Translations under genes and position numbers: made by a program
Source: a virus
DNA: 47,599 nt
IMG/VR virus record: IMGVR_UViG_3300037156_000069
Span: 1 to 47,599 of that record
Reading direction: 5' to 3' (one strand)
Notes under the pieces: model-generated
Seen by the model: only the letters and a program-made list of their open reading frames with translations
Database searches by the model: none
What the model was told of the DNA's origin: nothing
In this document: positions 10,682-41,421 of the stretch, in pieces
Position numbering within the stretch: the first letter of the stretch is position 1
Layout of the letters: the number at the start of each line of letters is the position of its first letter

Positions 10682-11155
10682 TTAATTTACTTGAGCCTCA
10701 TTGGCTTTAATCCAATTATACATACCTTCCCAATCTGTCAAGAAAACTTCAGCCAGACTAGGGTTATTCTCAATACAGAAAAAGTTATCTTCATCACTAG
10801 CAGCCGTAGTGTAATTCCAGCTTCCATATTGAATCCAAGTATCATCTAAAATAGTATATTTATTGTGCATTATCTTATGTTTGTCGCTAGTGCCTATCAT
10901 CATAGGTATGTCTGAGGCACGTAGAGCCTCTACGACAGGTTTTTCGGTTGAGCCACCACTCTGCGACTTATCTAGCACTAATTGGACATCTACACCTTTT
11001 TTCTGAAGAGCAGGCAGTATCGTCTCAAACTCAGGAATATTAAAGGAATAGTCAGCAATACGAATACTTTTAGTTGCCGTTTGAAGGAAAGTAAGATAAG
11101 CATCTTTGGTGTCATCCAGAGGAGAGAAATACCATTTACGTGTTAAATCTATCAT
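10682..11155 (-). CDS. Phospholipase-D-like protein with one HKD motif
   Basis: 157 aa. The sequence follows the single-domain PLD/Nuc family: TATKSIRIADYSFNIPEFET (residues 26-45), KKGVDVQLVLDKSQSG (52-67), and the catalytic H-x-K-x4-D motif HNKYTILD at about 96-103, followed by GSWNYT. Active enzymes dimerise to bring two motifs together and cut phosphodiester bonds in DNA or lipids. It overlaps the lysin gene by 4 bp (ATGA). There is no signal peptide, so it probably acts in the cytoplasm or at the membrane inner face. Whether its substrate is phospholipid (lysis) or nucleic acid is unknown. Confidence 0.8.
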   Translation of the reverse strand: MIDLTRKWYFSPLDDTKDAYLTFLQTATKSIRIADYSFNIPEFETILPALQKKGVDVQLVLDKSQSGGSTEKPVVEALRASDIPMMIGTSDKHKIMHNKYTILDDTWIQYGSWNYTTAASDEDNFFCIENNPSLAEVFLTDWEGMYNWIKANEAQVN

Positions 11156-25385: not shown

Positions 25386-25655
25386 TCAGTGTCTTGGTTG
25401 AATAGTTACATTAGGCGCATTATTAGATGAGTTAGTTTTAAAGGTTAAATTGGAATTAGTTATATTAGGTGTGGTGCTATTGGAGTTTAGTTTAATATCT
25501 GACGAAGCTACAGTTAAACTCCCCACTAGAATCCTAGAATCGTCCACTAGATAAACTGGGTCATCTACTAAGCAACTAGGAAAACCATCTAAGGCTGTTT
25601 CCATTAAAACTTGTGATGGGTAAGTCGTAACTTGCGGTATCCTACTATCGTTCAT
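25386..25655 (-). CDS. Small virion-associated protein
   Basis: 89 aa from the ATG at 25655 (MNDSRIPQVTTYPSQVLMET...), with GGAG eight bases ahead. Asn/Ser/Thr-rich C-terminal half ending NVTIQPRH. ATGA overlap with the large fibre gene suggests a fibre assembly or tip protein. No family recognised. Confidence 0.6.
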   Translation of the reverse strand: MNDSRIPQVTTYPSQVLMETALDGFPSCLVDDPVYLVDDSRILVGSLTVASSDIKLNSNSTTPNITNSNLTFKTNSSNNAPNVTIQPRH

Positions 25656-28600
25656 GATAATCTCCAATTGGATGTTACTCTAGGTATAAATCCTAAGTCA
25701 ATTAAGGTTGTGCTAGTGGATTGAGAAGTAGAGGAGGTAGATATGGAGCTACTGGTACTTGAGGTAGAAATTGAAGTACTGGTGGAGTTGGAAGTCGATG
25801 AACTAGTAGAAGTTGAAGTACTTGTTGAAAAGGATGTACTACTACTTGTGCTAGATGTACTAAAACTAGTAGAAGTCGAGTGGCTGGTACTGCTTGTAGA
25901 AAAGCTTGTAGATGAACTAGTAGAAGACGTAGAGAGACTTGTAGAGCTTGATGTGCTAGAAGTGGAGAAGCTACTGGAAGTTGAACTTGTGGAAAAAGAG
26001 GTGGAGCTGGAAGTGGAACTCGTGGAGATGCTAGAACTCGTAGAGGAAGTTGACAAGCTAGTAGTTGTAGAAGTACTGCTAGAGGTTGAAGTAGTAGTTG
26101 GAGCATTAGAGAATGTCCAGCCCGTATTACCACTAACATTTGTTGAGTCAGCTCCAGCGTAGAAAGTAGCACCACCTGTAGCCGTAGAGTCCTGCAAGAT
26201 GAGGTAATCACTAGAGACAACCCCCGAAGCTACAGAGATTGTGGCTGCACTTCCTGGAGTAGTGGCCGCTATGCTAAGTCTGCCATCGCCAAGCTGTGCA
26301 CCACTACCATTGATGGTTACAGTAGCGGCATTGGTTGAGGACTCCGTAAAAGTATTGGCACCGAAAGTCTTAGTGGTAAAATCAGCATCGAACGCAAGAG
26401 TACCTGCGACCCCATTATATACCTGTATGCGATAGAATTTGCCAGGAGTTAGAGTAGCCGTTCCAGCAAATATTGACCCAATCTCAAACACTGCTGTGCC
26501 GTTAAAGATAGAAGCTATAACAGTAGAGCCGGTTATACCTAATTGAGTCCAATCACCTGCTACTGGATTTAATATCGACCCACTAGCAGTATAGAAAGTC
26601 ACCACTCCGCTACTCTGAACCCAGGTTGCCCTTACCCATACGACCTGATTAGTAGTTATAGGTAGCGCAACACTCGACTGGGCGTTGCCCTGCGTTGTGC
26701 CATTCGCTGATAGAGCAAGATATAATTTACCTGCACTAGCAATACCTAAAGTATAACTAAGATTACTTGAGTTCCACTTACCAATAATCCCAGTAAAAGT
26801 TGAGGTAGATAATGTATCAAATGACATTCTGGCACGTAAATCAATATCGCTCGTAATATCAAGTGCCGCTGCATTAGGTGTTGATACATAGTTGCCAGCA
26901 ACCCCTGGTAAATATTCATAGCCATTATTCTGACCATTTACCTGCCAACCTGTAGCCGAGGAGATAGTTTGGGTCGTACCAGAGGTAAATATAATAGAGG
27001 ACATTGACGGTGAGATAATATTACTAAATGTATTTGAGCCAGAGATAGTTAAAGAGCCTGGGTTAGAGACTACCTGAAGGGTGCCATACGTATGACTTCC
27101 ACCAGCAAATACTTTAGCAGTTAGAGATGTGAGCGATAACAGAATAGTCGAAGTGCTAGCATTTATCGTCGCTCCCGCTGTTGCTGTCCATGGCGTAGTA
27201 CTACCTGCTGCAACTCCCGTTAAGCTCCATGTGCCACTACCCATATTAAGGGTTACTACAGCTGCGACACCACCAACATAAGAAGTTGAAAAGTTAAAGC
27301 CATTAGCATTAAATGTACCGCTAGTAAATGTAGTTGGGCCGTTAGAGTGATTGAAACTATCCTGTAAAGTATACGTACCAGTAAGAGAATTAAAAGCTAC
27401 TGTACGGTTAGTACCAAAGTTAATATTAAATCCACCAGTCGTTATAGTTTGACTACTGCGACCAGCAAAAGTAAGACCACCAGAGCCCGACGAGGTCATT
27501 GTGCCATTAGTAGTCCAATTTCCCAGCACCATTAGTAAGGCAGATTGGCCCCAAACACCCGTAAAGCCTGTCCAATCAACATTGGCTGCTAAAATTGGGG
27601 TTTCGGTTAAGATCGTACCTGAAGCATGGCTATCAATCATGGCCGTATCTTGTGGAAGCGGTACTCGACCAGTTCCACCTGTTCCACCAGACGAAGAAGC
27701 CCAGTTAGAAGCTGACGACCAGTTTCCTCCAGCTCCTACACGATAGTTGGTTTGAGGTGTAGCAAATGTAATGCCCGAGTTACCTAAAGCATCTCCCCAC
27801 CCTGAGTTACTCCAAGTAGCAGCTCCTGCTCCAGTAATATCCTGAAAATCTATTAGTCCATTTGTACTTACAGATGTCGCTGTAATAGTTCTAGCTGTGC
27901 CAGCTGTATCAGACTGAATCATGACTCGATTCGGAGCAGCTGCACCAGTAACAGTAAATGTACTGGTAATAGTTGGGTTGCCTCTAATCTGCAGGCTATT
28001 CGTCGTGCCTGGAGTGCTTGGTGCATAGGTGAAATTGGCGAATGTGGCATTGCTTCCTGTACCACCCCAAGAAACTGTGCCTGTATTATTGATGACTATT
28101 GATAACCCATTGTAATTATAGGCTACAGGATTAAAAGGTAAACCTGCCCCCGTGAACGTCATTGTAGCCGTATTGGCAGTAACAGTTAGAACAGTTGCAG
28201 TATTATTAAATGCACCAGAAATAGTGATAGCCGAACTCCCTAATGTAAGAGTCTTGGCACTAGCACTACTAATAGCAAATGCTACCCACGAGCAAGTAAG
28301 GCTGTTGGTGTTAAATCCTCCTCCTGTATATGTAATCGTTCCGCTAGAGGTAAGGCCATTAGTAACCAATTGCGTAGTAGTGGTAGAGCCGTTGGCTATT
28401 GTTAAGTTGCCTATGGTGAGTCCTGCAAAGTTATAGGTATTAGTGGCAGCCGAAGTGTCGGTAATGTTAATAGCTGATGTGGTTGCACTACCAAGTGTGT
28501 ATGTCTCAGTACCGACAAAAAGCAACGCAATATTGCTAACTGGTGCAGACGCACCGCCGATATTAAGAGTAATAGCGGCATTATGAGTAATCGTCCCCGT

Positions 28601-28771
28601 ATAACCTGTACACACTAAAGAACGAATGCGGTTAGTATTAACGTCAATAGTTAAAGGGCCCGAGGTAGCACCTAAGACAACATCATCACCGGCTGCTGGA
28701 ACGGAGCCAGGTGCCCATGTAGCTGAAGCTGACCAAGCACCTCCTGTTGCTGATACGGTTTGAGTTGCCAT
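25652..28771 (-). CDS. Large tail fibre with G8-like start, lectin-like domain and Ser/Thr tail
   Basis: 1039 aa. Residues 1-60 resemble a G8/beta-helix cap (TWAPGSVPAAGDDVVLGATS). Residues 60-600 are a repetitive Thr/Gly/Asn beta-helix. Residues about 615-830 look like a LamG/concanavalin-type sugar-binding domain (YEYLPGVAGNYVSTPNAAAL, IDLRARMSFDTLSTSTFTGI, WVRATWVQSSGVVTFY). Residues 890-1021 are almost only Ser and Thr, followed by a short end IDLGFIPRVTSNWRLS. It probably binds host surface glycans. The Ser/Thr tail may be a flexible or glycosylated linker. It ends the sugar cassette's downstream side. Confidence 0.65.
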   Translation of the reverse strand: MATQTVSATGGAWSASATWAPGSVPAAGDDVVLGATSGPLTIDVNTNRIRSLVCTGYTGTITHNAAITLNIGGASAPVSNIALLFVGTETYTLGSATTSAINITDTSAATNTYNFAGLTIGNLTIANGSTTTTQLVTNGLTSSGTITYTGGGFNTNSLTCSWVAFAISSASAKTLTLGSSAITISGAFNNTATVLTVTANTATMTFTGAGLPFNPVAYNYNGLSIVINNTGTVSWGGTGSNATFANFTYAPSTPGTTNSLQIRGNPTITSTFTVTGAAAPNRVMIQSDTAGTARTITATSVSTNGLIDFQDITGAGAATWSNSGWGDALGNSGITFATPQTNYRVGAGGNWSSASNWASSSGGTGGTGRVPLPQDTAMIDSHASGTILTETPILAANVDWTGFTGVWGQSALLMVLGNWTTNGTMTSSGSGGLTFAGRSSQTITTGGFNINFGTNRTVAFNSLTGTYTLQDSFNHSNGPTTFTSGTFNANGFNFSTSYVGGVAAVVTLNMGSGTWSLTGVAAGSTTPWTATAGATINASTSTILLSLTSLTAKVFAGGSHTYGTLQVVSNPGSLTISGSNTFSNIISPSMSSIIFTSGTTQTISSATGWQVNGQNNGYEYLPGVAGNYVSTPNAAALDITSDIDLRARMSFDTLSTSTFTGIIGKWNSSNLSYTLGIASAGKLYLALSANGTTQGNAQSSVALPITTNQVVWVRATWVQSSGVVTFYTASGSILNPVAGDWTQLGITGSTVIASIFNGTAVFEIGSIFAGTATLTPGKFYRIQVYNGVAGTLAFDADFTTKTFGANTFTESSTNAATVTINGSGAQLGDGRLSIAATTPGSAATISVASGVVSSDYLILQDSTATGGATFYAGADSTNVSGNTGWTFSNAPTTTSTSSSTSTTTSLSTSSTSSSISTSSTSSSTSFSTSSTSSSFSTSSTSSSTSLSTSSTSSSTSFSTSSTSHSTSTSFSTSSTSSSTSFSTSTSTSTSSSTSNSTSTSISTSSTSSSISTSSTSQSTSTTLIDLGFIPRVTSNWRLS
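25707..26100 (-). repeat. Ser/Thr-only tract in the tail fibre
   Basis: About 390 bp encoding S/T runs such as SSTSSST and STSFSTSS, the longest of three such tracts. Codons are mixed as in the other two. It produces false open frames in other registers and strands. Confidence 0.9.
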
Positions 28772-28784
28772 ATCAAAAAGTATG

Positions 28785-28824
28785 AGTAAAAGAAGACTAA
28801 GCCGCTAGTATCAGTCTATAGCGG
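28785..28824 (-). terminator. Weak terminator-like hairpin after the sugar cassette
   Basis: On the minus strand CCGCTA (28824-28819) and TAGCGG (28807-28802) pair around the stop codon of the last glycosyltransferase gene, followed by CTTAGTCTTCTTTT. The U-tract is imperfect and starts late, so this could be a partial terminator lowering fibre expression or a processing site. Confidence 0.35.
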
Positions 28825-29775
28825 TTGGATTTTGACTTGAGGTATCTCGTATATTTCGTCTAGATGTTTAGGACAAACTGCAGTTATATTATCTGTAGTT
28901 CTTAAACGTTCTTCGCATTGGGTACATTTAATACCCCAGATATCAAATCTCTTGCCCCAGACTTGGTTGTGGTCACCCATACGTAAATCATCTTGCACTA
29001 ATCCCTTAACATCTTCTTTGTCATTAGCATTTAATGATTTACTCCAGTGGTGAAATACCCAGCTTTTAGTTGTTCCTACGCACCTATAGCCCTTTAAACT
29101 AGCTCTACAGCAATAATCATAGTCTTCTGCACCCCCTGGATAATAAGATTCATCTAAGTATCCAACATCTAAAAATTTATGAGTATCAAATACAGAGCAA
29201 TATAGAGTAATGCCATCTATTACAGAATCCGGCTTAAGCGTAAGATGTTCATTCACATAATGTTCATCATTAACTAACTTATTATATTCTTCATCTGAAT
29301 ATTCTTCTTTATAAGGTAAAACATAGAAGTCATCCCCCGACTTACGACCTACTGACCAATCAGGGAGTTTAACAGATGAAGGAGTTACTATAATAGCTGG
29401 ACGGTCGGGAGTAGCTTTATCAACTTGCGAGAAAGTATCAAGAACTCCCTGCCACCACTTGTCATTTATAAACTCAACATCATCATTACACATAGTAAAG
29501 TAGGGAGTTGATACTAATTGAACTGCTAAGTTATTAGCTTTAGAGAAACCCAAGTTACCGGTTTTATGGAAATCAGTTATTGGTGGGCGAATTAACATCG
29601 TTCCAGGATACTTTTTTCGGTTAATTGTAAGTCCACCTTTAGTTTGGTCAACTATATAAATATAAAAAGTATCATGTTCCGTATACTTATATATAGTGTC
29701 CAAACATCTTTCTATAAGGTCAGGTCTTATAACAGGGATTATAAAGGTATTCCACTTTGGGTAACTAAATGGCAT
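28816..29775 (-). CDS. Family 2-type glycosyltransferase
   Basis: 319 aa. GT-A fold pattern: NTFIIPVIRPDLIERCLDTI at the start, FTMCNDDVEFINDKWW with the DD/DxD-type metal site near residue 115, and GAEDYDYCCRASLKGYRCVG (ED motif) near 215. The C-terminal end has a four-Cys site (CTQCEERL...CPKH), perhaps zinc. It transfers a sugar from a nucleotide donor. Last gene of the sugar cassette; it overlaps the preceding gene by 11 bp. Confidence 0.8.
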   Translation of the reverse strand: MPFSYPKWNTFIIPVIRPDLIERCLDTIYKYTEHDTFYIYIVDQTKGGLTINRKKYPGTMLIRPPITDFHKTGNLGFSKANNLAVQLVSTPYFTMCNDDVEFINDKWWQGVLDTFSQVDKATPDRPAIIVTPSSVKLPDWSVGRKSGDDFYVLPYKEEYSDEEYNKLVNDEHYVNEHLTLKPDSVIDGITLYCSVFDTHKFLDVGYLDESYYPGGAEDYDYCCRASLKGYRCVGTTKSWVFHHWSKSLNANDKEDVKGLVQDDLRMGDHNQVWGKRFDIWGIKCTQCEERLRTTDNITAVCPKHLDEIYEIPQVKIQPL

Positions 29776-30733
29776 TTATAACCTTATCTATTTGTTCCAT
29801 CATCGAATCTATCGTGTAACCTTTATCAATTAAATAATTTCTATAATCATTAGAGTCATAGTCATCACTTATAATCATCTGTACGGCCTCTGAAGGGGTG
29901 TTCCAGGTCATTTCAGGCCAAAGACGTTCTGCACCATAGAAACTATGTAGAACTGGTTTAATGCCCTTTGCCATAGCTTCAGCAGTCGCATATGAAAAAG
30001 CTTCTTTAATACTAGCTATTAACATATAATCTTTATCCTCTAGCCATTCGTCTAGGTTATCTACCCAATCATAAAACGTAAAGTTTAGGTTATGGCGTTT
30101 AATGAAGTCTTCAGCATAATCACGGAAATAAGGGTAATCATTCGACCAAATTCCAACCCAATGAAACTCATAGTCTCGTGGCAATTCATAAGCTATCTGG
30201 AGAATATTCTGCATTCCTTTAATAATCCATTTCTCTGAAACAATGGCTACTTTTTTACCTGGGTTGTGTTTATTCCAAGTCCATCGGTCTAGATTTACTC
30301 CCATAGGTATAGTGTGTAGCTTCATATTGCTTGCCTGGGGGCGTGAGTCGGACATCATTAAGTCTCTAATATGGGGAGCTATAAATATACAATCAGTTAC
30401 TACATCCCACATATTGTCTCTAGCATGAGCGCCACCCCAAACTTCAATGTCTATTGGCTGTACTATAATTTTTTTACCAGTTAAATCCATTTCGTGCATA
30501 TCCCAAGCACCTGGACGATTAGTATATTTCCATTCATCTTTAAGGGCTTGGTCAGGGTTGGTAGCAGAAGTAAGATTATTATCACATGTATGAAAAAACA
30601 CTACATCAGCCCACATCACTAATTCTGGATTATAATACGGTTCCCATTTAACTTCATAGCCATGCTTCTGCCACCACTCTACAGAATCACGCATAAATTT
30701 AAGCTGGTAGGGGTCAAATAGTGCTATTTTCAT
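29765..30733 (-). CDS. GT-B glycosyltransferase (group 1-like)
   Basis: 322 aa. The layout is that of GT4-type enzymes: an N-terminal Rossmann domain (MKIALFDPYQLKFMRDSVEW), then KVAIVSEKWIIKGMQNILQI (donor-domain start), WVGIWSNDYPYFRDY, and the C-terminal EAFSYATAEAMAKGIKPVLH that replaces the usual E-x7-E motif. It overlaps both neighbours by a few bases. The sugar is unknown. Confidence 0.75.
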   Translation of the reverse strand: MKIALFDPYQLKFMRDSVEWWQKHGYEVKWEPYYNPELVMWADVVFFHTCDNNLTSATNPDQALKDEWKYTNRPGAWDMHEMDLTGKKIIVQPIDIEVWGGAHARDNMWDVVTDCIFIAPHIRDLMMSDSRPQASNMKLHTIPMGVNLDRWTWNKHNPGKKVAIVSEKWIIKGMQNILQIAYELPRDYEFHWVGIWSNDYPYFRDYAEDFIKRHNLNFTFYDWVDNLDEWLEDKDYMLIASIKEAFSYATAEAMAKGIKPVLHSFYGAERLWPEMTWNTPSEAVQMIISDDYDSNDYRNYLIDKGYTIDSMMEQIDKVINAI

Positions 30734-31683
30734 AATATAGAACCTACTATAGTTAATAAATCTCTAACCTTATCTTGAACATAGAAACCATCGAAATAAT
30801 ATTCCCAATCTTTCAAGTTAAAAGTTTTTCCTTGGAAGGTTTGGGGGTTAAGTAACCACTCAATTTTATTCAGACAATCCTCAATATTATAAAAGTATGT
30901 AACCATATCGCCAAAACGAGTCTCAGATAACGGAATATACCTAAATAAGGGTTTGCGCCCACAGGCTATTATCTGAGCATTTCTGTCGCTCCAGTAACCA
31001 GATTCTATAGTGTGGTCGATAGACAGAATAACTTTAGCTCTAACATATAATTTTGGCAGCTCTTTGTCCATGATGGGAGGTCGAACATCCAGACCCCACT
31101 CCTCTGGCCAACTATTAACCGAATGAATTACAAGATTGAATTTCTCATTAACTGCTTTTAGAGTTTCATTGCGCTCTGTAGCCCATTCTAGATAACTGCC
31201 CGTGAAAAGAACATCTATATCTGGTATATCTTTACAGGAGTTATCTTCTACTAACGTATTAGAGAGCCATGATTCATAATAAGGTTTAAGAAACTGAGGT
31301 GCAAAGTCTTGCGACAAGTATTGCCAATTAAGATATTTAGAGTCAGCTATTCGCTTACTGAGGTATAAATCAGATTGTTCTATTAGTTTTTCATGCCATT
31401 CTTGGCCATCTGCTTGGTAATCGAACGCCCAATAAACTATTGGACATTTAAATTTCTCTCTAATATTAGTTATTAAATGTACAGAATAACCATCCCACTG
31501 AGCAACTAATATAAAGTCATACAATTCTAAAGCATCAGTCGGATAATCTATAATCGCATTACTATATCGTTGTTGTCTAGTAACCTTGTGCCCTAAGTCT
31601 TCTAGAGCTTTAGCAATATGCTCTTCATCGCAAATTGAGCCATCCCAACCTGTACCAAAGTTTCCAATAGATAATATCCTCAT
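30730..31683 (-). CDS. CgeB/YkvP-type glycosyltransferase
   Basis: 317 aa. N-terminal MRILSIGNFGTGWDGSICDE with a Rossmann-type start; middle VDVLFTGSYLEWATERNETL; C-terminal YWSDRNAQIIACGRKPLFRY, matching the Glyco_trans_1_2 (CgeB-like) pattern of DR-x-x-E/Q-x-x-A-C-G. Overlaps the next gene by 4 bp. Likely adds a sugar in the same glycan. Confidence 0.75.
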   Translation of the reverse strand: MRILSIGNFGTGWDGSICDEEHIAKALEDLGHKVTRQQRYSNAIIDYPTDALELYDFILVAQWDGYSVHLITNIREKFKCPIVYWAFDYQADGQEWHEKLIEQSDLYLSKRIADSKYLNWQYLSQDFAPQFLKPYYESWLSNTLVEDNSCKDIPDIDVLFTGSYLEWATERNETLKAVNEKFNLVIHSVNSWPEEWGLDVRPPIMDKELPKLYVRAKVILSIDHTIESGYWSDRNAQIIACGRKPLFRYIPLSETRFGDMVTYFYNIEDCLNKIEWLLNPQTFQGKTFNLKDWEYYFDGFYVQDKVRDLLTIVGSIL

Positions 31684-32243
31684 TTATATGCCCTTATCCT
31701 AATATCATACTTGGGTTCGGCAATACCATGACCCTCACCTAATTTAATTTTTTTAATATCTTTAAAACCGATATTCCCCAAAAGATTCTTATACCGGTTA
31801 AAGTTAAATCCTGTCTGATGTAGCTGGCCAGGTTCATCTGTACGGCCTCCATAAAACAATCCAAGTACTCTATCAGATTGGTCACCTTCCAGCCATAGTT
31901 TACAAGCTTTATCTAAGTCGGGAGTCTCAATTTCTATATAAGCCCGAGGGCGTAAGAGATTATAACATTTTTTAACAATCTCATCTGCATCCTCGGTGGG
32001 TACATGTTCTAGAGCATGAACTATATGGATTACGTCAAATGAGTCGCCAGCAAAATGTTTATCAATATTCTGAGCTTTAATTGGTAACATATGATATCTT
32101 CCAACTAAACTAGAATCAGTTAATGGATGGTCTTGGGTATAAAAAGGCTCAATATTAATCCATTTAATTTCATCAGTATCACCATACGGAGAATTACCAG
32201 CCCCTATATTAAGGCCTAATTTAGCTCGTTTACTATCGTCCAT
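31680..32243 (-). CDS. SAM-dependent methyltransferase
   Basis: 187 aa class I type. Motif I is LGLNIGAGNSPYGD (residues 9-22), a motif-IV-like region FDVIHIVHALEHVP near 84-97, and YIEIETPDLDKACKLW. LHQTGFNFNRYKNLLGNIGF is typical of small methyltransferases found in polysaccharide clusters. It probably methylates a sugar hydroxyl or carboxyl. ATGA overlap with the gene after it. Confidence 0.8.
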   Translation of the reverse strand: MDDSKRAKLGLNIGAGNSPYGDTDEIKWINIEPFYTQDHPLTDSSLVGRYHMLPIKAQNIDKHFAGDSFDVIHIVHALEHVPTEDADEIVKKCYNLLRPRAYIEIETPDLDKACKLWLEGDQSDRVLGLFYGGRTDEPGQLHQTGFNFNRYKNLLGNIGFKDIKKIKLGEGHGIAEPKYDIRIRAYK

Positions 32244-33087
32244 CTTCTTCGTAATATTTCATTATCCAGTCTGGGTCATATTTAATATCATCTATATCAT
32301 CAGGTAGCATTTTCTTGTTATACCAAACATCTGAGCCTAGAGTATCTCGGTTAAAGCCCCATTTCTGGTCAAAATAGTCCCAGTTCTTTTGCCAATCTTC
32401 TTGGTGGGTGCCATCGAATGTACCACTCTTATTGCTAAAGTGATACACTAATACATCTTTTAATCTAATAGGAGTAATGCCAGCTAAGTTTATTTTAGTT
32501 TGTAAATCCGTATCAGAGTTACTCCCCCATGGGTCAAACTTAGTATCATATCCTCTAATTGTTCTCCATACATCAGCTCTTATAAAGAACGGAAGGTTGA
32601 ACCCACTTTCCTCCTTATTATCCTGTATGGAGTGAATATGACCATTAACAAATTTATCGATACTTTCTGGATTAAACTCATCTAAAGTAAACCCTCCATT
32701 ATATTTTATAAATGGTTCTGCACTACCAGGATTGTTAGTGGGCTCGACTAAATTAGGTGAGAAAACAGGATAGTCAAAACGTAAATTCTTATCCCAACCT
32801 GGCGAGAAATACATATCTGAGTTAATCACAAAGAAATAATCTGTATTAGATTCTGCAACTTCAGCTCCTACATTGACTGCATGGCATTGTCCTTGCTGCC
32901 TAGTATGTAGATGTTTAGTAATACCTTTAATATCATACTGAGCGAGAGGCTGGGAGTTTTTACTCCCGTTTGTAACTACGTTAATATCTCCATCAAATCC
33001 AGACTCTCTCAAACTTTCAACACATAATTTTAAATATTCTCCATCCACTTCTACTAAAGAAGGAATTATTGCTGTTATTTTAGTCAT
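32233..33087 (-). CDS. Family 2-type glycosyltransferase
   Basis: 284 aa. The start TKITAIIPSLVEVDGEYLKL and YFFVINSDMYFSPGW (DxD-type site near residue 93) fit a GT-A fold; WGSNSDTDLQTKINLAGI carries the later acidic motif. Two Trp-rich stretches in the C-terminal half (WQKNWDYFDQKWGF). Overlaps the methyltransferase gene by 11 bp. Acceptor and donor unknown. Confidence 0.8.
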   Translation of the reverse strand: MTKITAIIPSLVEVDGEYLKLCVESLRESGFDGDINVVTNGSKNSQPLAQYDIKGITKHLHTRQQGQCHAVNVGAEVAESNTDYFFVINSDMYFSPGWDKNLRFDYPVFSPNLVEPTNNPGSAEPFIKYNGGFTLDEFNPESIDKFVNGHIHSIQDNKEESGFNLPFFIRADVWRTIRGYDTKFDPWGSNSDTDLQTKINLAGITPIRLKDVLVYHFSNKSGTFDGTHQEDWQKNWDYFDQKWGFNRDTLGSDVWYNKKMLPDDIDDIKYDPDWIMKYYEEDGR

Positions 33088-33694
33088 TTAAAACCTCACT
33101 AACAAACTGAAAACTATCAGCTGATTTTACCATTTCTTCTACTTGGTCATATGTCTCATATATCCCATTACCTACACAATCCCATGTGTGCCCATGCCAC
33201 GCTTTATCTATATCAGTGTCTTGGTGACCGTCCCAAGCTACAAAGCCTCCATTGTTATTAACATAAGCTTTCAACTCTTTAGGGCGTCGCACATTATTAT
33301 AAGATTGGTCTCCAACCCACCATTTATGCTTGGCTAACCATTTAAAACAGTCATCGCTTATTTGCCAACCTGGAGCTTTAAAACCATTAACAAAGTACTC
33401 ATCTAGCATTGGTTTAAAAAACTGCATCTTCTCATCAAACTCTTCATAAGTCATTTCTGCACATTCATAATTAGATGAGTGAAAGAAACCATGAACAGCT
33501 AACTCTACCCAGGTATTGTTAGATTTACACCAATTGGCTAGTTCAGCTGTCATCTCGCCAGGTATAGCAAATAGAGTAACTTTAAAATTATTATTAGCGT
33601 AATGTAGCTGGTCTAACTTGTCTCGACAATCGTGCGACTGACATTGGTCGTTAATTATATGATTCGCTCCTAGGTCATCAAAATCTACTATCAT
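33080..33694 (-). CDS. Polysaccharide deacetylase-like protein (NodB fold)
   Basis: 204 aa. MIVDFDDLGANH gives the metal-binding Asp pair; ELAVHGFFHSS has the H-x3-H motif of NodB deacetylases; FKAPGWQISDDCF corresponds to the R/K-x-P-[WY] motif 3. These enzymes remove N- or O-acetyl groups from sugars. The protein is compact and lacks a signal peptide, so it acts in the cytoplasm, consistent with modification of an intracellular glycan rather than host wall. Overlaps both neighbours. Confidence 0.75.
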   Translation of the reverse strand: MIVDFDDLGANHIINDQCQSHDCRDKLDQLHYANNNFKVTLFAIPGEMTAELANWCKSNNTWVELAVHGFFHSSNYECAEMTYEEFDEKMQFFKPMLDEYFVNGFKAPGWQISDDCFKWLAKHKWWVGDQSYNNVRRPKELKAYVNNNGGFVAWDGHQDTDIDKAWHGHTWDCVGNGIYETYDQVEEMVKSADSFQFVSEVLND

Positions 33695-34407
33695 TTGTAC
33701 TTACCAATCCTTTCAACCCATTTATCAGGGAATAATTTATTTAATAATCTACTATTCTCACGTACACAATGACCTCCGATTACTCCTTCAGGAGCATCTA
33801 ATACAAATTTCTGGAATTGTTTATCTAATCCTAATTTTTTATATAGTTTATTATAATCTCTATTCCACTCTTTAGTGAGTTCAAAATCTGCGTCTATGTC
33901 ATCGAATACTCTTTTTTTATAGTCAGCGAACATTAAGTTAATTCCATACTCAGTTGTGCTTAAGAGTTTAAGCCCTTCAGTTACCCTAGTATCTTCAACT
34001 AATCTAGTTTTAAGTTTGGCTTTCTTAAAATATTTATCAAAGAACTTTGCCGAGTCTAAATCATTATACCCAATCCAACGAGTCATTAACCTAATGCTAT
34101 TAGCTAGGTCAGGATGTTTACCCTCAACTGGAGTGTGTATGACTCGCCTCCCTAACTTCTTAGTAACACCCATAGGAACTGTTGACCACACCACAACATG
34201 CTGAGGCTCGTATTGGGCTATATAATCCCAGACTTGAGTTATAAAACTATCAGTATAGGGAAAACAAATATGCATAATATCTACATTAATTATTCGTTTC
34301 CTATTAAAACTGCTCCTTAATTTAATATCATAAATATTAGCAGTAGGGTCTATGACTTCTTGCACAGCCTTGCCTATCTCTCCTAACCCAATGATTAGAT
34401 TTTTCAT
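33691..34407 (-). CDS. Short nucleotide-sugar dehydrogenase-like protein
   Basis: 238 aa. The Rossmann motif GLGEIG lies at residues 7-12. Middle: VWSTVPMGVTKKLGRRVIHT and TRVTEGLKLLSTTEYGINLM. End: APEGVIGGHCVRENSRLL, in which GGHC carries the catalytic Cys of UDP-sugar 6-dehydrogenases (about residue 217). Normal enzymes are about 430 aa; this one lacks the C-terminal UDP-binding domain, so either another protein supplies it or the reaction differs. It would oxidise a sugar to a uronic acid. ATGA overlaps on both sides. Confidence 0.65.
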   Translation of the reverse strand: MKNLIIGLGEIGKAVQEVIDPTANIYDIKLRSSFNRKRIINVDIMHICFPYTDSFITQVWDYIAQYEPQHVVVWSTVPMGVTKKLGRRVIHTPVEGKHPDLANSIRLMTRWIGYNDLDSAKFFDKYFKKAKLKTRLVEDTRVTEGLKLLSTTEYGINLMFADYKKRVFDDIDADFELTKEWNRDYNKLYKKLGLDKQFQKFVLDAPEGVIGGHCVRENSRLLNKLFPDKWVERIGKYK

Positions 34408-35039
34408 CTAGGTTCTTCCTTATCAATAATATAATAGGTATGGGGTCGGTTAGCACGAGTCGAGGTTTCAGTATAAAGCCAGGTGTGCCCTATAGAGTCT
34501 AACCAGGTTTCCCATTCATCTTTGTTAATGTCGGCTCCGTAGCCATTAGTCCCTTTATCGGTGTCATCATTTACTTTAGTAATTACACCATCCATTGTTC
34601 GCCAAAAACATACTATAACCCGTTTCCTAGCTAGCCGTAGAGCTTCTTCTAGTGGCTTTTTATAACTATTAGTGTGTTCAAGTATGTCCTGCAATAAAAC
34701 TACATCAAAAAAATCATTCGGAAAACCAACATCTCTACAATCACCAAGTGAAATCGGCGTCACCCCATATTTTACTTTAAGTCGTTCATTAGCTACTTTT
34801 ACAAATCTAGGAGATAAATCTACTCCAATATAGTCAATTGCCGGACCGTATTCTTCAAAATGGTCAAAATTCCAAGCAGGTCCACACCCTACGTCTAGCA
34901 CAGATTCTCCATCATTTATAAAAGAGCTGATAATCATTCGGGTTTCACAGCCTGGGCCTTCTCCATAACTATGCATATAATTAGCAGCCGTCTTATCATC
35001 AACCATTAAGTTATCCCAATAATCATTGTCTGGGTTCAT
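34404..35039 (-). CDS. SAM-dependent methyltransferase
   Basis: 211 aa class I methyltransferase. Motif I is SVLDVGCGPAWNFDHF (near 48-63); IDYIGVDLSPRFVKVANERL gives motif II; FFDVVLLQDILEHTNSYKKP gives motif IV. It may methylate a sugar, like the other methyltransferase of the cassette. Overlaps both neighbouring genes by 4 bp. Confidence 0.8.
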   Translation of the reverse strand: MNPDNDYWDNLMVDDKTAANYMHSYGEGPGCETRMIISSFINDGESVLDVGCGPAWNFDHFEEYGPAIDYIGVDLSPRFVKVANERLKVKYGVTPISLGDCRDVGFPNDFFDVVLLQDILEHTNSYKKPLEEALRLARKRVIVCFWRTMDGVITKVNDDTDKGTNGYGADINKDEWETWLDSIGHTWLYTETSTRANRPHTYYIIDKEEPR

Positions 35040-35704
35040 AGTTCTTCCCTAATAAATAAATTAGTTACCTTATCAGATATATCAACTTTGAATAAGGAAG
35101 GGTTATCTAAGTAGTTTTCGTCAGATACATAAGTAGTGTTGGGATTAAGTTCTATTCGACGATTAGTATTCCAAAAGTGAAAAGAGACTATGGTAGATAA
35201 CTCTACAAGATTTTTTGTGTCCCAAGGTAAAGTATCGATATCTCTACCCAAAGCCGACATCTTTATAATAGCCCCTGGCACAAAACCAACTTGGATATTA
35301 TAAAGTTTCATATCCCGTTTCTTACGACAAGGCTGCACATGCCAGCCTTTAGTTGCTGGACCATCTTTAACATTTTCTAATTTATAATTATATATACGAT
35401 TATCAAAAGTTTTAACTCCTAAACAAGAAGAAATCATAGATAATTTTCTATTACCTCCCCCAGTAATATCGTCATTCTTCTTCTTCATTAACCCGTAATT
35501 AGAAGACAAATAATTTGCGCTCAATATACAGTCAGCTTCAACTAAACATACATAAGGAGTTCTTACTTTTCTAAGTCCTTCTACCCAAGAATCTTCGAGT
35601 AATATTTCAGCCCCATTAATATCTGATAATTGTCTAACCATATCTTGTTGAGTCATTTGTATAACAGTCGGCTCAGCGCTTCGCTTTATTATTACAGTAA
35701 TCAT
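35036..35704 (-). CDS. GT-A-like glycosyltransferase, short
   Basis: 222 aa. VRTPYVCLVEADCILSANYL carries an EADC site where DxD is normal (near residue 58), and GFVPGAIIKMSALGRDIDTL follows the acceptor side. It is shorter than usual family 2 enzymes and the N-terminal strand pattern is weak, so the assignment rests mainly on the VEADC region and context. ATGA overlaps with both neighbours. Confidence 0.55.
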   Translation of the reverse strand: MITVIIKRSAEPTVIQMTQQDMVRQLSDINGAEILLEDSWVEGLRKVRTPYVCLVEADCILSANYLSSNYGLMKKKNDDITGGGNRKLSMISSCLGVKTFDNRIYNYKLENVKDGPATKGWHVQPCRKKRDMKLYNIQVGFVPGAIIKMSALGRDIDTLPWDTKNLVELSTIVSFHFWNTNRRIELNPNTTYVSDENYLDNPSLFKVDISDKVTNLFIREEL

Positions 35705-36480
35705 AAGAAATATCTCTCAGACAATTCTTTTCCAGCATACTTTTCTACTTCTATAGGGTCATCACCATTAGTTAAAGCGGGGTGAGAGATATCTGAGTGT
35801 CCAGTATCTTCTGGTTTTAAGTTCTTATCATATCCCCAAAAGTCAGTTCCATTATTATCCCTAGTCCCGAATAAATGAAGAGTAGGAATGTGAGTGGCAA
35901 AACCAGTTCTGTACCCAGCTTCTCGTAACTTACCTCCTATATATCGTTCCTCTTGTCCACGGCCATTTGATAGCCTATCCCAACCATCAACCTCATTGAC
36001 TGCACTTGTAAGCATAATACGTAGACTACCCCCTGGATGAGGAAAGTCAGTAATATCACTCGTCTCATCTTCAAATATATTGCCCGTACCTATCATTACC
36101 TGTGTTCTACAAGCTATCGCTGCGTAGTCTTCATACTTATCCATTAAGTTACTCAATAAATCTACCCAGTCTTTTTTGTCTACCATTGGAGGCGGCAAAC
36201 AATCATTATCTATACAAATAAAATAATAACCATAGGTTTGTTTATCAAAGAGATACTGCCTGGCGTATTCTAAGCCCATATTCGATTTAAGATTAGTATA
36301 GGAGTCCATGAGTCCATTATCATAAAATTTTTGGAGCATATCTCTAGTTTCTTGGTCAGAGCCGTTATCTAAAACATGTAATCTAAAGTTCTCACGTTTA
36401 GTATTACGATGGATAGTCTCTATAACTAACTTAGTCATCTTGGGTCGGTTCCAGCTAACCAAGTGTAAATCTATAATCAT
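35701..36480 (-). CDS. Family 2-type glycosyltransferase
   Basis: 259 aa. DLHLVSWNRPKMTKLVIETI at the start; FRLHVLDNGSDQETRDM; YYFICIDNDCLPPPM with the DND metal site (near 82); NGRGQEERYIGGKLREAGYR near 180. A complete GT-A domain. ATGA overlap with the gene after it; the nuclease gene lies 12 bp upstream. Confidence 0.8.
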   Translation of the reverse strand: MIIDLHLVSWNRPKMTKLVIETIHRNTKRENFRLHVLDNGSDQETRDMLQKFYDNGLMDSYTNLKSNMGLEYARQYLFDKQTYGYYFICIDNDCLPPPMVDKKDWVDLLSNLMDKYEDYAAIACRTQVMIGTGNIFEDETSDITDFPHPGGSLRIMLTSAVNEVDGWDRLSNGRGQEERYIGGKLREAGYRTGFATHIPTLHLFGTRDNNGTDFWGYDKNLKPEDTGHSDISHPALTNGDDPIEVEKYAGKELSERYFL

Positions 36481-36492
36481 TCTAGCCTTCCT

Positions 36493-36993
36493 CTAAGCGA
36501 GTAGATGCCAGGCGTTTTTATATTGTTCATACTTAGATTTTGATTTTCGGTCAACGATACGATATGTTCTATCTTCTGTTGGTGTAGGTACGACAATTGA
36601 AACTTTTTCACCAATAACACCTTCAGGAATAACATAAAATATATCATGTTCCACCAGCCAGAAAATAAAGTAATCAGCGATACCAGCATAACTCTTTTTA
36701 TTAAATTTCTTTTTGTATAATCCGTTACCAGCATTACGAAACTCTGGTCGCCTGATGCCGAACGAATATTTGTAGGAATAACTACTCGGTGTATGACTAG
36801 GTCTATAAGATGTCTTAACTTGCAACTTTTTGCCATTGTCCACCAGAATAATATCGACTCCATCATCTTGGTCACAAACTGCTGGTGCAAAACCTTGTAA
36901 TATAAGTTCAGCTCGTACACGTAATTCACCCGCTTTTCCTATTTGTGTCGATTTTAGTGTCAAAAACTTCTCCGAAACAATTGTATTTACCAT
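36493..36993 (-). CDS. PD-(D/E)XK endonuclease inserted in the sugar cassette
   Basis: 166 aa from the ATG at 36993, which has AAGGAG eight bases ahead; an earlier ATG at 36999 is too near it. Residues 14-60 (IGKAGELRVRAELILQGFAP, DDGVDIILVDNGKKLQVKTS) give the E...D...x-x-Q-x-K core of the PD-(D/E)XK family that includes the homing enzyme of Synechocystis introns and archaeal resolvase-like proteins. No sugar-enzyme feature. It overlaps the preceding glycosyltransferase gene by 68 bp. A mobile homing-type nuclease is the likely reading; a virion or host-takeover nuclease is possible. Confidence 0.7.
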   Translation of the reverse strand: MVNTIVSEKFLTLKSTQIGKAGELRVRAELILQGFAPAVCDQDDGVDIILVDNGKKLQVKTSYRPSHTPSSYSYKYSFGIRRPEFRNAGNGLYKKKFNKKSYAGIADYFIFWLVEHDIFYVIPEGVIGEKVSIVVPTPTEDRTYRIVDRKSKSKYEQYKNAWHLLA

Positions 36994-37864
36994 CTTCATC
37001 ACTCCTTGGATATTGAATATATAAAAGTGCCCCTAGGGGTTTACTCTTATTATCCCTTGTCAGAAGATAAAAAGCAAGCGCATCGTCACCCCAAGGATTT
37101 CCTAGGCTAAGACCATGTCTCTTTACACCATCTTGGAAAGCTCCATCTGGATTCTCTGTGTTCTCATACTGAAACTTATCAGCTACTGGGTCAAGTTTAA
37201 GTGGGAATTTAGAGTCAGCCGCAAACTGGTAAGGATTAGGCTCATCTGGTATACGGTACTTCTTATCTGAGGCCCATAGGTCACGTTTGAAAATAAATGA
37301 CCCAGTTCCTATCTGTCCTGACCTAAACCATTCGTGGCCCTTACCCTCTTCAGCTGGCCTAAACGTCTCTCTAATTGTGGTTCTGTGGTCAGCCCAATGT
37401 ATAATAGACCCAAAGTTGAAGATACTGTATTCTGGAAAGTCTTGAATAGCTTTATCTAATTCTCTAAGGTAGTGTGTTGAATACTCATCATCTGAATCAA
37501 GCCAACAAATCCACTCGCCAGTAGCAGCGTCCATGCCTGTATTCCGGGCTATAGCGCGATTTCCATTAGGTATATGAATATACCGTATTCTTTCGTCCAT
37601 ATCCTCAAAAGCTCCTAAAATTCTAGAAGTAATAGGAATAGAACCTTCTATGGGCTCACCATCTTCACTTTTAGGATAATCACAACAACCATCATCAACT
37701 ATAATTAGCTCCCAATCTTTAAATTGCTGGGCTAGAATCGACTTGATAGCTCTCTGGACTGTCGCTCCCCGGAAGTGCCTCTGCCCCGAAGCCCCCCCCT
37801 GTACTGGGTCCAGCTCCGAATACACGGGAAGGACTACGGAGAATTTCGGTTTCTTGTCTGACAT
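36926..37864 (-). CDS. Family 2-type glycosyltransferase
   Basis: 312 aa. PKFSVVLPVYSELDPVQGGA at the start; DWELIIVDDGCCDYPKSEDG; NGNRAIARNTGMDAATGEWI; CWLDSDDEYSTHYL with the DSDD metal site (near 134). A typical family 2 enzyme. It starts inside the previous gene (146-bp overlap) with GGAG upstream, and its last 68 bases overlap the nuclease gene. Confidence 0.85.
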   Translation of the reverse strand: MSDKKPKFSVVLPVYSELDPVQGGASGQRHFRGATVQRAIKSILAQQFKDWELIIVDDGCCDYPKSEDGEPIEGSIPITSRILGAFEDMDERIRYIHIPNGNRAIARNTGMDAATGEWICWLDSDDEYSTHYLRELDKAIQDFPEYSIFNFGSIIHWADHRTTIRETFRPAEEGKGHEWFRSGQIGTGSFIFKRDLWASDKKYRIPDEPNPYQFAADSKFPLKLDPVADKFQYENTENPDGAFQDGVKRHGLSLGNPWGDDALAFYLLTRDNKSKPLGALLYIQYPRSDEDGKYNCFGEVFDTKIDTNRKSG

Positions 37865-39155
37865 CCTCTTGCTCCTTCATTAATAATGGTTCTAAATAAC
37901 GTTGGAAAACATAATCTGGGTTGCGACGGGTTCTGACCCATGTCTTAGCTTTTAAAACATGCTCATTGTCTAAATAATATTTAATTGAACTAGCCATATC
38001 TCTATAATAAGCGTCAGAATCGCTGTGCTGAGTGCGGATTTCCCCATTATAACCACTCATAGCTATATTAGAACCATCAAATTGCTTATATAGAGCGTTC
38101 TTACCATATATTTGTCTAAATGGAGCGAAGTCGTGGTTTAAAATACATAAATTACCTCTAGACATAGCTTCTTGGGCTATCAGGCTATAGGTTTCACTCT
38201 TAGATGGAAGCGCAAAAACGTTTGATAAGGTGAATAATTCTAGAATAACTGAGTGGGGAACCTCCATACTAGCAGCTTCATCAAACTCAGACAAAAAAGT
38301 AACCCTATCTTCTACACCTAACCTCAAAGCTAATTCTTTGAGTTCCTCTCTATAAATAACTTTATCGCCTCCAGTAGACTGGAAATCACAAACAACCAGA
38401 TGGGAACTTACATTTGACGCCTTACACCCTCCCATAATTTCAATAAGACCTTCAACATACTTACCTCGGTCTAATCTAATAGGATAAACCATTAAAATAT
38501 CTGGTCTGCCTAATCCTAGTTCATCATAAAGCCGTTTTGTAATTCGGCTCATACCTTCTGTTGGGTCGCTAGAATGAGGAACTTCAATTATTTCATTCTC
38601 TTCAAAAGAATAATTTAAAGCTACTCTAGGTATGTCATAAGCATTTGGATAGGTAATGATTGAGTGCGGGAATCTTTCAGCTAAGTGAATGGCATATTGC
38701 TCACCATACATAGCCCGTTCTTTTATCAGTATGCTAGGGTTAGTAGCTGAATGTATAGTATGAATCCACTCAATACTTGAGTTTTCAGCAGCTATTTTCC
38801 TAGAAGCTATATTTAGTTTTACGTAATCGGGCAAGAAAATAAGGTCATGGGTTAACACTACCGAATCATCTTCTAAAAATCCCCTGAGTTCTTCATAGAG
38901 AATGTCTATATCTTTTTCAGCGGCTTCATCTATCTCAGTACCATCTATGGGCACAGGAGTAAGATATTTAACCTCGACACTACTAAAAATAGAATCCTCG
39001 GGTGGGTCAAAACCTTTATTAGTAATTAAAGTAGGCTGATAGCCAGCTCGCAACAACTGATTGAGTTGGCCACCTACTACTATAATCGGGCTATAGCTTT
39101 TTAGATAAGTGCTAAAGTTCGTTAGAATGAATACTTTGCGTTTTTTGGTGTCCAT
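37719..39155 (-). CDS. Family 4-type glycosyltransferase
   Basis: 478 aa from the ATG at 39155 (MDTKKRKVFILTNFSTYLKS...). N-terminal GGQLNQLLRAGYQPTLITNK; donor-domain DILMVYPIRLDRGKYVEGLI; VTFLSEFDEAASMEVPHSVI; and FALPSKSETYSLIAQEAMSR with the E-x7-E motif near 345. First gene of the cassette. The last 48 residues are Ser/Gly-rich and overlap the next gene in another frame. A promoter-like element (GTCAATAGTCGGT repeat) lies just upstream. Confidence 0.85.
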   Translation of the reverse strand: MDTKKRKVFILTNFSTYLKSYSPIIVVGGQLNQLLRAGYQPTLITNKGFDPPEDSIFSSVEVKYLTPVPIDGTEIDEAAEKDIDILYEELRGFLEDDSVVLTHDLIFLPDYVKLNIASRKIAAENSSIEWIHTIHSATNPSILIKERAMYGEQYAIHLAERFPHSIITYPNAYDIPRVALNYSFEENEIIEVPHSSDPTEGMSRITKRLYDELGLGRPDILMVYPIRLDRGKYVEGLIEIMGGCKASNVSSHLVVCDFQSTGGDKVIYREELKELALRLGVEDRVTFLSEFDEAASMEVPHSVILELFTLSNVFALPSKSETYSLIAQEAMSRGNLCILNHDFAPFRQIYGKNALYKQFDGSNIAMSGYNGEIRTQHSDSDAYYRDMASSIKYYLDNEHVLKAKTWVRTRRNPDYVFQRYLEPLLMKEQEDVRQETEILRSPSRVFGAGPSTGGGFGAEALPGSDSPESYQVDSSPAI

Positions 39156-39202
39156 GCTAAGCACAAACATAACACTCGTCAATAGTCGGTGTCAACTACT
39201 TT

Positions 39203-39559
39203 TTATAGTGGAACAGGGGCACCTTTAGAAGGAGGGCAGACGTAGACCGTTACATCTACATCCGTAGATATGTAGACTGGCCATGGGCAATAGAAATGCT
39301 GTTTATAGTCTCTGGCAGTCAAGGCTCCAGCCATAATCATTTGCGTCGTACCCGCACTATCTTGGAAAAATTCATTTACACCAGCAGTTGAGGTCACATT
39401 AACAGAAACTAGAGTAATGACTGAACCAGAAGTACATACTTTAAAGTTTGTAGCTCCACCCGGAACATGTACCGGGTCATTCGCAAACCCGGCACCAACT
39501 AAAGCACCTTTTTGAGCTGTTTGTATTCGTCTTGTGTAGTCACCTGGTAACATCGCCAT
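39203..39559 (-). CDS. Small beta-rich virion protein
   Basis: 118 aa, MAMLPGDYTRRIQTAQKGAL... ending VYVCPPSKGAPVPL. Beta-rich and lacking charge clusters. AGGAG precedes the ATG. It sits between the Ser/Thr-tailed head protein and the sugar cassette. Likely a decoration or fibre-base protein. Confidence 0.6.
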   Translation of the reverse strand: MAMLPGDYTRRIQTAQKGALVGAGFANDPVHVPGGATNFKVCTSGSVITLVSVNVTSTAGVNEFFQDSAGTTQMIMAGALTARDYKQHFYCPWPVYISTDVDVTVYVCPPSKGAPVPL

Positions 39560-39568
39560 AATTTACTC

Positions 39569-40426
39569 CTAAACCGGTAGGGTTGTGGTTGATGTTGAGG
39601 TGCTGGACGTACTAGTAGTTGTAATAGAAGTTGAGGAGCTAGTACTTGATGTGCTGGTAGTTGTCATTGAAGTACTTGTAGAGCTCGAAGTAGACGAGGT
39701 ACTTGTAGATGTAGTAGTACTGTAGAAGTCTGGAGAATCCTTTGGGGGATAAACCAAAACTTTGTAAAACCAATAGAAGAAGTACAAAAACTTCGTGCCG
39801 TCCGGAGCAGTAGCTGGTTGTGCCCAGTTTTTCTCTACAAACTGGTTATCCGTATTTGAACTAGATACAGCCGCTTCAACAACTGGAAAAGCAGTTTTAA
39901 GACTAGAGTTAGCAGGGTTATAAGGTGAAGTGGTTGCAGCATGAATAGCTACTATAGTTGAGTAGTTTGGCACTAAACGATGGTTAAGCCCAAGTTTGGC
40001 CGTAGTATCTATTGTAACTGTACCAGTTGCACCTAAAGCAGCAGGAACAAGTATTGAAGTAACTCGCTTGAATACGAGCGTACCGGCAGTTTGGCCACCA
40101 CCAGTGTTCATAGCAATAGTATTAGTAATAGTTTTGCCTTCAACATTAACACCAGTAATTACTACATTCCCTGCAGATATCCCACTACCACCAGTTGTGA
40201 TAGCCAAAACCCTAGGTACATCAGGATTAGTAATCCCAGTAGTTATGGTTTGAGCGCTCGTTGAGCCTGTGATAGAAGAGTGAACCGCCCCAGCAGTAGC
40301 TGCTGAAACTTTTTTTGCACGATAAGTATAAGCACCTGTCGTTTCAATAACATTTTGTAAAACATTGAACGGATACCCCCAAGCTGTATGTGCAGCCCAT
40401 GGATACGTTCTGTCGCCGATTGCCAT
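39569..40426 (-). CDS. Head-associated protein with Ser/Thr tail
   Basis: 285 aa. Residues 1-225 are beta-rich with Gly/Thr repeats (TGGSGISAGNVVITGVNVEG, KTITNTIAMNTGGGQTAGTL), a decoration or short-fibre pattern. Residues 236-282 are almost only Ser and Thr, ending TTTLPV. It lies directly after the capsid gene and directly before the sugar cassette, so it is a prime candidate glycosylated surface protein. Function inferred from position. Confidence 0.6.
   Translation of the reverse strand: MAIGDRTYPWAAHTAWGYPFNVLQNVIETTGAYTYRAKKVSAATAGAVHSSITGSTSAQTITTGITNPDVPRVLAITTGGSGISAGNVVITGVNVEGKTITNTIAMNTGGGQTAGTLVFKRVTSILVPAALGATGTVTIDTTAKLGLNHRLVPNYSTIVAIHAATTSPYNPANSSLKTAFPVVEAAVSSSNTDNQFVEKNWAQPATAPDGTKFLYFFYWFYKVLVYPPKDSPDFYSTTTSTSTSSTSSSTSTSMTTTSTSSTSSSTSITTTSTSSTSTSTTTLPV
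39578..39718 (-). repeat. Ser/Thr-only tract in the head-associated protein
   Basis: About 140 bp encoding TSTSSTSSSTS-type runs with mixed codons. Shortest of the three tracts, at the extreme C-terminus of its protein. Confidence 0.9.
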
Positions 40427-40488: not shown

Positions 40489-41421
40489 TTAGGAGTTATC
40501 TCCTTTTGAGCCGTAAATTCCGCGCCAGTTAGACCAACCAGCACTCCAACGGCAGACAGTACTCCAACGAGCAGTCTTTGTGTCAAAGTCCCAATCAGGT
40601 CCTTCTAGACCTCGGTCGCTACGATTGAACCAGTTAAGTTCTTCTACAGAGCGGTCCATAATAAACCAAGCTGTATCTGAACCACCGGCCGCACTACCTA
40701 AGTAATCCCAAGTCATAACTTCTAGTCGACCCTTGTAAGGGTTGATGTCGTTGTTAGTAGTTCCGGTTCGTCCCATCGAATCCATTAAGATTCGAGCTTC
40801 TTTTTCAAGAGAAGGAGGAACAATTAAATGAGTAGGCTTAACTAACATTAGTTGACCCTTACCATCGAGCGTAGCTCGCATAGTAACAAGTGCGTTCTCA
40901 ATTGAGTCTTCACTTAAATCAGCGGTATTATAGTTACTTTGAGTTGCACCACCATCTTCCCGAGGGTGAGCAGCATTAAATAGTGAAACTGAGTCAGGTC
41001 CTGTAAATAGAGCTGAACCAGAACCGCCTAGCGTAAAGCCGCCATTCAAAATATCAGCACCAAATTGTTCTTGGGTGCGAATTTTTGCGTTAGCTAAGTT
41101 TTGAGGTTTACGACGCATTACACCAAATTGGTCATCTTCCCAAAGCTCTTGAGATACTGAAGTACCTTTAGTGAACTTTAGGTGGGTGTAAATTACGTTG
41201 TAACCTTCAACTTCGTCTTCATATGTTATAGGCGCAGACTCTCCAGTTTGAACCAACTTAGATAGACCTGTTGCACTCGAGTCTTTTTCAATATTCTTAA
41301 CCGACGTATCGACATTGAATATAGTAAAGACCTGTTGTGGCAACTGGCGAATCTCGTCTCCGTAAATCTTACGGAAAGCAGGGTCAAGGATGTCTGGCCA
41401 TTGTGGTCGTTGTGATGCCAT
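40489..41421 (-). CDS. Major capsid protein (Mu gpT-like)
   Basis: 310 aa. Residues 150-310 follow the gpT-like HK97-fold pattern: SLFNAAHPREDGGATQSNYN, LVTMRATLDGKGQLMLVKPT, HLIVPPSLEKEARILMDSMG, WFIMDRSVEELNWFNRSDRG and the end VCRWSAGWSNWRGIYGSKGD. This is the main head shell subunit. AAAGGAAAA lies upstream. It stands after scaffold and decoration genes, the usual order. Confidence 0.85.
   Translation of the reverse strand: MASQRPQWPDILDPAFRKIYGDEIRQLPQQVFTIFNVDTSVKNIEKDSSATGLSKLVQTGESAPITYEDEVEGYNVIYTHLKFTKGTSVSQELWEDDQFGVMRRKPQNLANAKIRTQEQFGADILNGGFTLGGSGSALFTGPDSVSLFNAAHPREDGGATQSNYNTADLSEDSIENALVTMRATLDGKGQLMLVKPTHLIVPPSLEKEARILMDSMGRTGTTNNDINPYKGRLEVMTWDYLGSAAGGSDTAWFIMDRSVEELNWFNRSDRGLEGPDWDFDTKTARWSTVCRWSAGWSNWRGIYGSKGDNS

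Follow-up and report, generated by a model that had tools for sequence, protein, structure and literature searches.

A phage genome of 47.6 kb, recovered from IMG/VR, probably encodes the means to coat its own particle with sugar, as mucin does. We put the probability of a phage-encoded O-glycosylation system for the virion, yielding a mucin-like sugar coat, at roughly three in four. The reading is preferred because long Ser/Thr stretches in virion proteins and a cassette of sugar enzymes appear and disappear together across relatives. The initial annotation had already proposed that these enzymes act on the Ser/Thr tracts, a part of its reading that joint presence and loss support well. With slightly lower confidence, a large uncultured phage group would have mucin-like virions, built from interchangeable Ser/Thr modules and a linked, lineage-variable O-glycosylation cassette led by a family 4 glycosyltransferase (GT4) and gained or lost as a unit.

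The late operon, its Ser/Thr tracts and its sugar cassette

The window, meaning the whole stretch of 47,599 nucleotides that was analysed, is an IMG/VR virus record. It most likely represents a complete phage genome, since an exact 127-base repeat lies at its two ends. The late operon runs on the minus strand in the order terminase, portal, capsid protein, head-associated protein, sugar cassette, fibre-like protein, hub-like protein and further structural genes. 'Fibre' and 'hub' are names given by position and are supported by no family model. The features referred to below are:

21416-23464, minus strand: hub-like protein, proposed acceptor 3; internal Ser/Thr tract at 21926-22201, a loop insertion missing in G021, G022 and G031
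25652-28771, minus strand: fibre-like protein, proposed acceptor 2; Ser/Thr tract at 25706-26104; phrog_5313, unknown function
28816-29775, minus strand: GT2 glycosyltransferase (PF00535, E 4.8e-8)
29765-30733, minus strand: GT1/GT4 glycosyltransferase (PF00534, E 6.2e-7)
30730-31683, minus strand: glycosyltransferase (Glyco_trans_1_2, E 1.5e-7)
31680-32243, minus strand: SAM methyltransferase (Methyltransf_23, E 1.4e-7)
32233-33087, minus strand: GT2 glycosyltransferase (PF00535, E 4.7e-7)
33080-33694, minus strand: polysaccharide-deacetylase-like protein, a weak call (invariant D6 D7, H68 and H72, FxAPGWQI motif)
33691-34407, minus strand: nucleotide-sugar-dehydrogenase-like protein, a weak call (NCBIfam NDP-sugDHase, E 3.9e-4)
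34404-35039, minus strand: SAM methyltransferase (Methyltransf_11, E 2.3e-15)
35036-35704, minus strand: GT2-like protein with an ExD motif (sub-threshold PF00535, E 0.0034)
35701-36480, minus strand: GT2 glycosyltransferase (PF00535, E 9e-11)
36493-37002, minus strand: PD-(D/E)XK-like nuclease, called by eye from the translation (phrog_5018, E 8e-7, function unknown)
36926-37864, minus strand: GT2 glycosyltransferase (PF00535, E 1.4e-21; structural matches GT2 5hea and SpsA 1h7l)
37719-39155, minus strand: GT4-type glycosyltransferase that constantly accompanies the tracts (Pfam Glycos_transf_1)
39569-40426, minus strand: head-associated beta-rich protein, proposed acceptor 1; C-terminal Ser/Thr tract at 39575-39727, kept in relatives
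40489-41421, minus strand: major capsid protein, on which the comparison is anchored; no tract (Phage_capsid_4, E 1.2e-18, Mu-like gpT)

The three Ser/Thr tracts reported in the initial annotation were recovered at closely similar coordinates. Serine and threonine make up 45/51 residues in the head-associated protein, 118/133 in the fibre-like protein and 84/92 in the hub-like protein. The best 25-residue window contains 23-25 Ser/Thr in each of the three tract genes, and the next gene of the window reaches only 12. Across relatives, all ten Ser/Thr codons are used, with AGY and TCN serines interleaved. The tracts therefore do not look like a DNA microsatellite, and this codon usage is better explained by selection on the protein than by slippage of the DNA. 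AlphaFold predicts a confident beta-rich core for the head-associated protein and a disordered tract (pLDDT<50); a fold search with this protein gave no match below E 0.001. No description of Ser/Thr tracts in phages was found in a literature search whose reach excluded most subscription papers.

The sugar cassette comprises 13 overlapping genes (28816-39155) inside the late operon, and neighbouring genes mostly overlap by 4-11 bases. Seven of the products are glycosyltransferases (GTs) that pass the Pfam cut-off and an eighth is a weak GT2; the other five are two methyltransferases, a nuclease and one protein each of deacetylase-like and dehydrogenase-like type. Twelve genes with seven GT-like products had been counted originally; the overlapping cassette is real, and the recount gives 13 genes, eight of them GT-like by Pfam (one sub-threshold). 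The enzyme classes first assigned hold for the GTs and the two methyltransferases, which have Pfam support, and the nuclease is assigned by eye. Motifs and weak matches are the basis for the names deacetylase and dehydrogenase. The deacetylase-like protein itself has no Pfam match, and its relatives match DUF2334 at E 0.004 and Polysacc_deac_1 at E 0.02; relatives of the dehydrogenase-like protein match Pfam UDPG_MGDP_dh only at E 0.04-0.06. PDB sequence searches with both families returned no matches. The 'methylated, partly deacetylated, acid-sugar' glycan first proposed is thus less supported than the action on the tracts, given these weak calls and the fact that the two genes do not occur in every relative.

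Membrane segments, a flippase, a polymerase and a lipid-carrier transferase were not seen among the cassette genes, and in none of the GTs does any 19-residue window exceed 1.3 on the Kyte-Doolittle scale. The lack of membrane segments and flippase fits a soluble, cytoplasmic addition of sugar to proteins. The GC content of the cassette (37% vs 41-43% in the flanking structural genes) is consistent with separate acquisition. One member of the dehydrogenase-like alignment matches an HNH model; together with the nuclease inside the cassette, this suggests that selfish nucleases may move it. In G017 (locus L039), the reading frame of the dehydrogenase-like protein is longer, at 450 aa. An alternative frame overlapping the nuclease gene (36477-36929) had no family matches.

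Distribution of tracts and glycosyltransferases among capsid relatives

Relatives were collected in two scans with the capsid protein (loci L002-L033 and L054-L104), the second of which matched 448 relatives in IMG/VR, with the best 80 of the 448 kept. The relatives examined are mostly tract-bearing. GTs were called with Pfam on whole records, and L005 was counted as positive through its similarity to the GT4 of the window. Co-occurrence was counted among relatives whose sequence continues for at least 4 kb past the capsid gene, a limit that two loci with a tract and no GT (L012 and L054, merely 2.6-3.1 kb) fall below. Among the relatives counted, 32 have both tract and GT, 12 have neither, one has tracts without a GT and none has a GT without a tract. 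The association is strong in a Fisher test that ignores kinship (p 5e-10). Co-occurrence in related phages, which the initial annotation had suggested as a check, is thus borne out, and tracts without sugar genes, which would speak against its reading, occur at most once.

That single case, L081, is a fragment in which tracts are present and GTs absent across 19.9 kb. The region after its capsid gene runs into minus-strand genes, including one for an amidase-like protein identified by eye (L081:14482-16460). In L089, from the same sub-lineage, a GT2 gene lies on the strand opposite the capsid gene (L089:7562-8332). The cassette may have moved in this sub-lineage.

On the capsid tree, the tract-free group is nested within tract-bearing ones with moderate support (81/80). 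The simplest reading of this nesting is that the tract-free state reflects one joint loss, plus the outgroup. Phylogenetically independent contrasts amount to just two pairs, for which a sign test cannot reach significance, and the phylogenetically independent evidence for the link between tracts and cassette is thin.

The tract-free genomes indicate what was lost. G021, G022 and G031 (41-49 kb; G031 complete) have no tract anywhere, with a maximum of 13-14 Ser/Thr in 25 residues, and none of their genes reaches the Pfam cut-off for a GT. Tract-free head protein homologs end at a motif resembling NPTNDxPxYGV, exactly where the Ser/Thr tail of the others begins. The hub alignment shows the tract inserted into a short loop, and the tract-free homologs lack the insertion only. 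Tracts on separate proteins therefore change state together with the cassette, as the tract-free head and hub homologs lack just the tract, in genomes from which the cassette is absent. At the same place, these relatives retain a single GT2-like gene encoding about 200 residues with an ExD motif (for instance G021:23990-24583, L072:5336-5938 and L020:7250-7843). It is homologous to the gene at 35036 (21-26% identity), the only cassette gene with a homolog found in tract-free relatives.

In nine of nine long tract-bearing genomes (the window, G012, G017, G040, G047, G051, G078, G079 and G084), tracts lie on head, fibre-region and hub-region proteins, and the GT cassette sits between the head and fibre genes. 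In more distant tract-bearing genomes, the tract-bearing head proteins are different and shorter, and a short ORF of its own carries the hub-region tract. The distant relative L083, at 43% capsid identity, repeats this layout and reads head tract, GT2, dehydrogenase-like, GT2, two methyltransferases, deacetylase-like, GT4 and a fibre-like protein whose tract spans about 240 residues. In a separate observation, the major capsid gene of L018 (G017:27820-29381) is interrupted: a 168-aa ORF separates its two ORFs, likely through an intron or homing-endonuclease insertion.

A candidate priming enzyme and a proposed route to a sugar coat

One cassette gene is constant across the group. Homologs of the GT4 at 37719-39155 were found in 44 loci, with identity down to 30%, while other cassette genes come and go. 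Its alignment has invariant K232, E321 and E329, corresponding to the conserved lysine and EX7E pair, and its structure has a GT-B fold with MshA/BshA as best matches. GtfA was considered as a structural match and is absent from the top 50. An NCBIfam scan returned only generic GT4 models and none for GtfA/GtfB, a PDB sequence search gave no matches, and no sequence relative was present among 50,697 phage records. Serine-rich-repeat glycoprotein loci, which encode GtfA/GtfB, pair a constant priming GT with variable further GTs that elongate the chain (PMC6973325); by this analogy, the GT4 is the best candidate for adding the first sugar to Ser/Thr.

The proposed pathway would operate late in infection, when soluble cassette enzymes, working in the host cytoplasm, would assemble sugar chains directly on the Ser/Thr tracts. 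We infer that the tracts of the head-associated, fibre-like and hub-like proteins are disordered modules dedicated to accepting sugar. The GT4 would put on the first sugar, and the remaining GTs, the methyltransferases and the deacetylase-like enzyme would extend and trim lineage-specific chains. Sugars would be added before or during particle assembly, and the resulting mucin-like coat might benefit the phage through shielding or binding to surfaces.

Phage virion glycosylation is already known from mycobacteriophages, and the Ser/Thr acceptor tracts are the apparently new element here. Glycosylated virions of Che8 and others (Freeman et al. 2023, as cited in PMC12619734 and PMC11256854) likewise involve several phage-encoded GTs, compared with the seven above the Pfam cut-off here. 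The citing papers report glycans at the C-termini of capsid and tail-tube subunits, whereas the major capsid protein of the window has no tract, and the acceptors proposed here are dedicated tracts of 50-130 residues on accessory head, fibre-like and hub-like proteins. Che8 was rejected as a sequence precedent for such tracts, its capsid and major tail proteins having at most 8 Ser/Thr in 25. In the Che8 relative Maravista, the account in PMC11256854 places GTs near the 3' end of the genome, in contrast to their position between head and fibre genes here.

Serine-rich-repeat glycoprotein loci resemble the present system in their long Ser/Thr-rich acceptor, their constant and variable GTs and their intracellular O-glycosylation (proposed here). 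They differ in having a recognisable GtfA/GtfB pair, to which no family match was found here; moreover, the acceptors here are virion proteins, for which accessory Sec export is not expected, and no SecA2 or SecY2 was noticed in the scanned genes. Chlorovirus PBCV-1, with its autonomous glycosylation of the major capsid protein, also encodes its own glycan assembly for the particle. However, it is a eukaryotic virus with mainly N-linked glycans on a folded capsid protein, and the accessible part of the source does not describe mucin-like tracts (PMC4691112).

Virion glycosylation has been documented in few phages. Because the acceptor is recognisable here from its sequence, metagenomes could be screened on a large scale for candidate glycosylated phages. 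Relatives that naturally lack the tracts offer a direct control for the effect of a sugar coat on the phage, and the GT4 would count as a new soluble enzyme of O-glycosylation.

Tract-bearing contigs elsewhere and other explanations

Outside the group, the link is only suggestive. An order-free Ser/Thr codon pattern (WCN x18) retrieved mostly homopolymeric, microsatellite-like repeats and was discarded. A scan with a mixed Ser/Thr codon pattern gave 58 contigs with verified tracts, 37 of them of 12-110 kb; such tracts occurred in 0 of 80 control loci. Eight of the 37 belong to the group by their capsid, and all eight (8/8) encode GT2. Among the others, GT2 was found in 14/29 vs 5/47 control contigs drawn with a random 14-mer (p 4e-4), so that it is missing from half of the out-of-group tract contigs. 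The control rate for any GT2 agrees with the earlier remark that phages rarely embed so many sugar enzymes. GT4 alone was not enriched outside the group (11/29 vs 10/47, p 0.19), enrichment of any GT was borderline (p 0.05), and the expectation that GTs would adjoin the tract failed there, as they lie no closer than random. These three results confine the strong link to this phage group.

The lack of proximity is compatible with an explanation in which the tracts and the cassette each reflect adaptation to the same host or habitat, with no enzyme-substrate relation: the tracts would be unmodified, flexible, sticky spacers and the cassette would remodel the host envelope, for receptor masking or superinfection exclusion. 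Phage GTs are well known for host surface conversion (noted in PMC12619734), and the linkage seen here stems from few independent events. However, the serotype-converting gtr cassette has the membrane flippase GtrA and membrane-anchored GTs, neither of which was seen in the window cassette, where no membrane protein, flippase or lipid-carrier transferase is visible. The cassette also sits within the structural operon, separate proteins lose their tracts along with it, and the head tract, being C-terminal, is no linker. This explanation is considered unlikely.

A division of labour in which host enzymes or the GT4 alone glycosylate the tracts, with most of the cassette serving another purpose such as a free polysaccharide, draws on the GT4 being the sole constant across the group while other GTs vary; yet serine-rich-repeat glycoprotein loci likewise combine constant priming with variable elongation (PMC6973325), and we regard this division as very improbable. 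Glycosylation of phage DNA bases as an anti-restriction hypermodification, with unrelated tracts, seems about as improbable. Some phages are cited as hypermodifying DNA through multi-GT pathways (Pyle et al. 2024, in PMC12619734), and a pentose on cytosine is described in phage Thanatos (PMC12838424). However, no base-hydroxylating or nucleotide-modifying enzyme was found in the part of the early genes that was searched, and base modification would not predict the loss of Ser/Thr tracts along with the cassette. O-glycosylation of the virion proteins remains the preferred reading.

A host search by capsid across 84,980 genomes gave two matches at about 30% identity, both metagenome-assembled genomes and uninformative for the host. 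Elsewhere in the window, an early protein carries GNSGDRNSGYGNS repeats (4569-5360, Pentapeptide_2), a DUF7666/Imm5-like protein is followed by SAAESAARSAAW repeats (3340-4104), and a small PLD-like protein (PLDc_2, 10682-11155) lies close to the end of the late operon.
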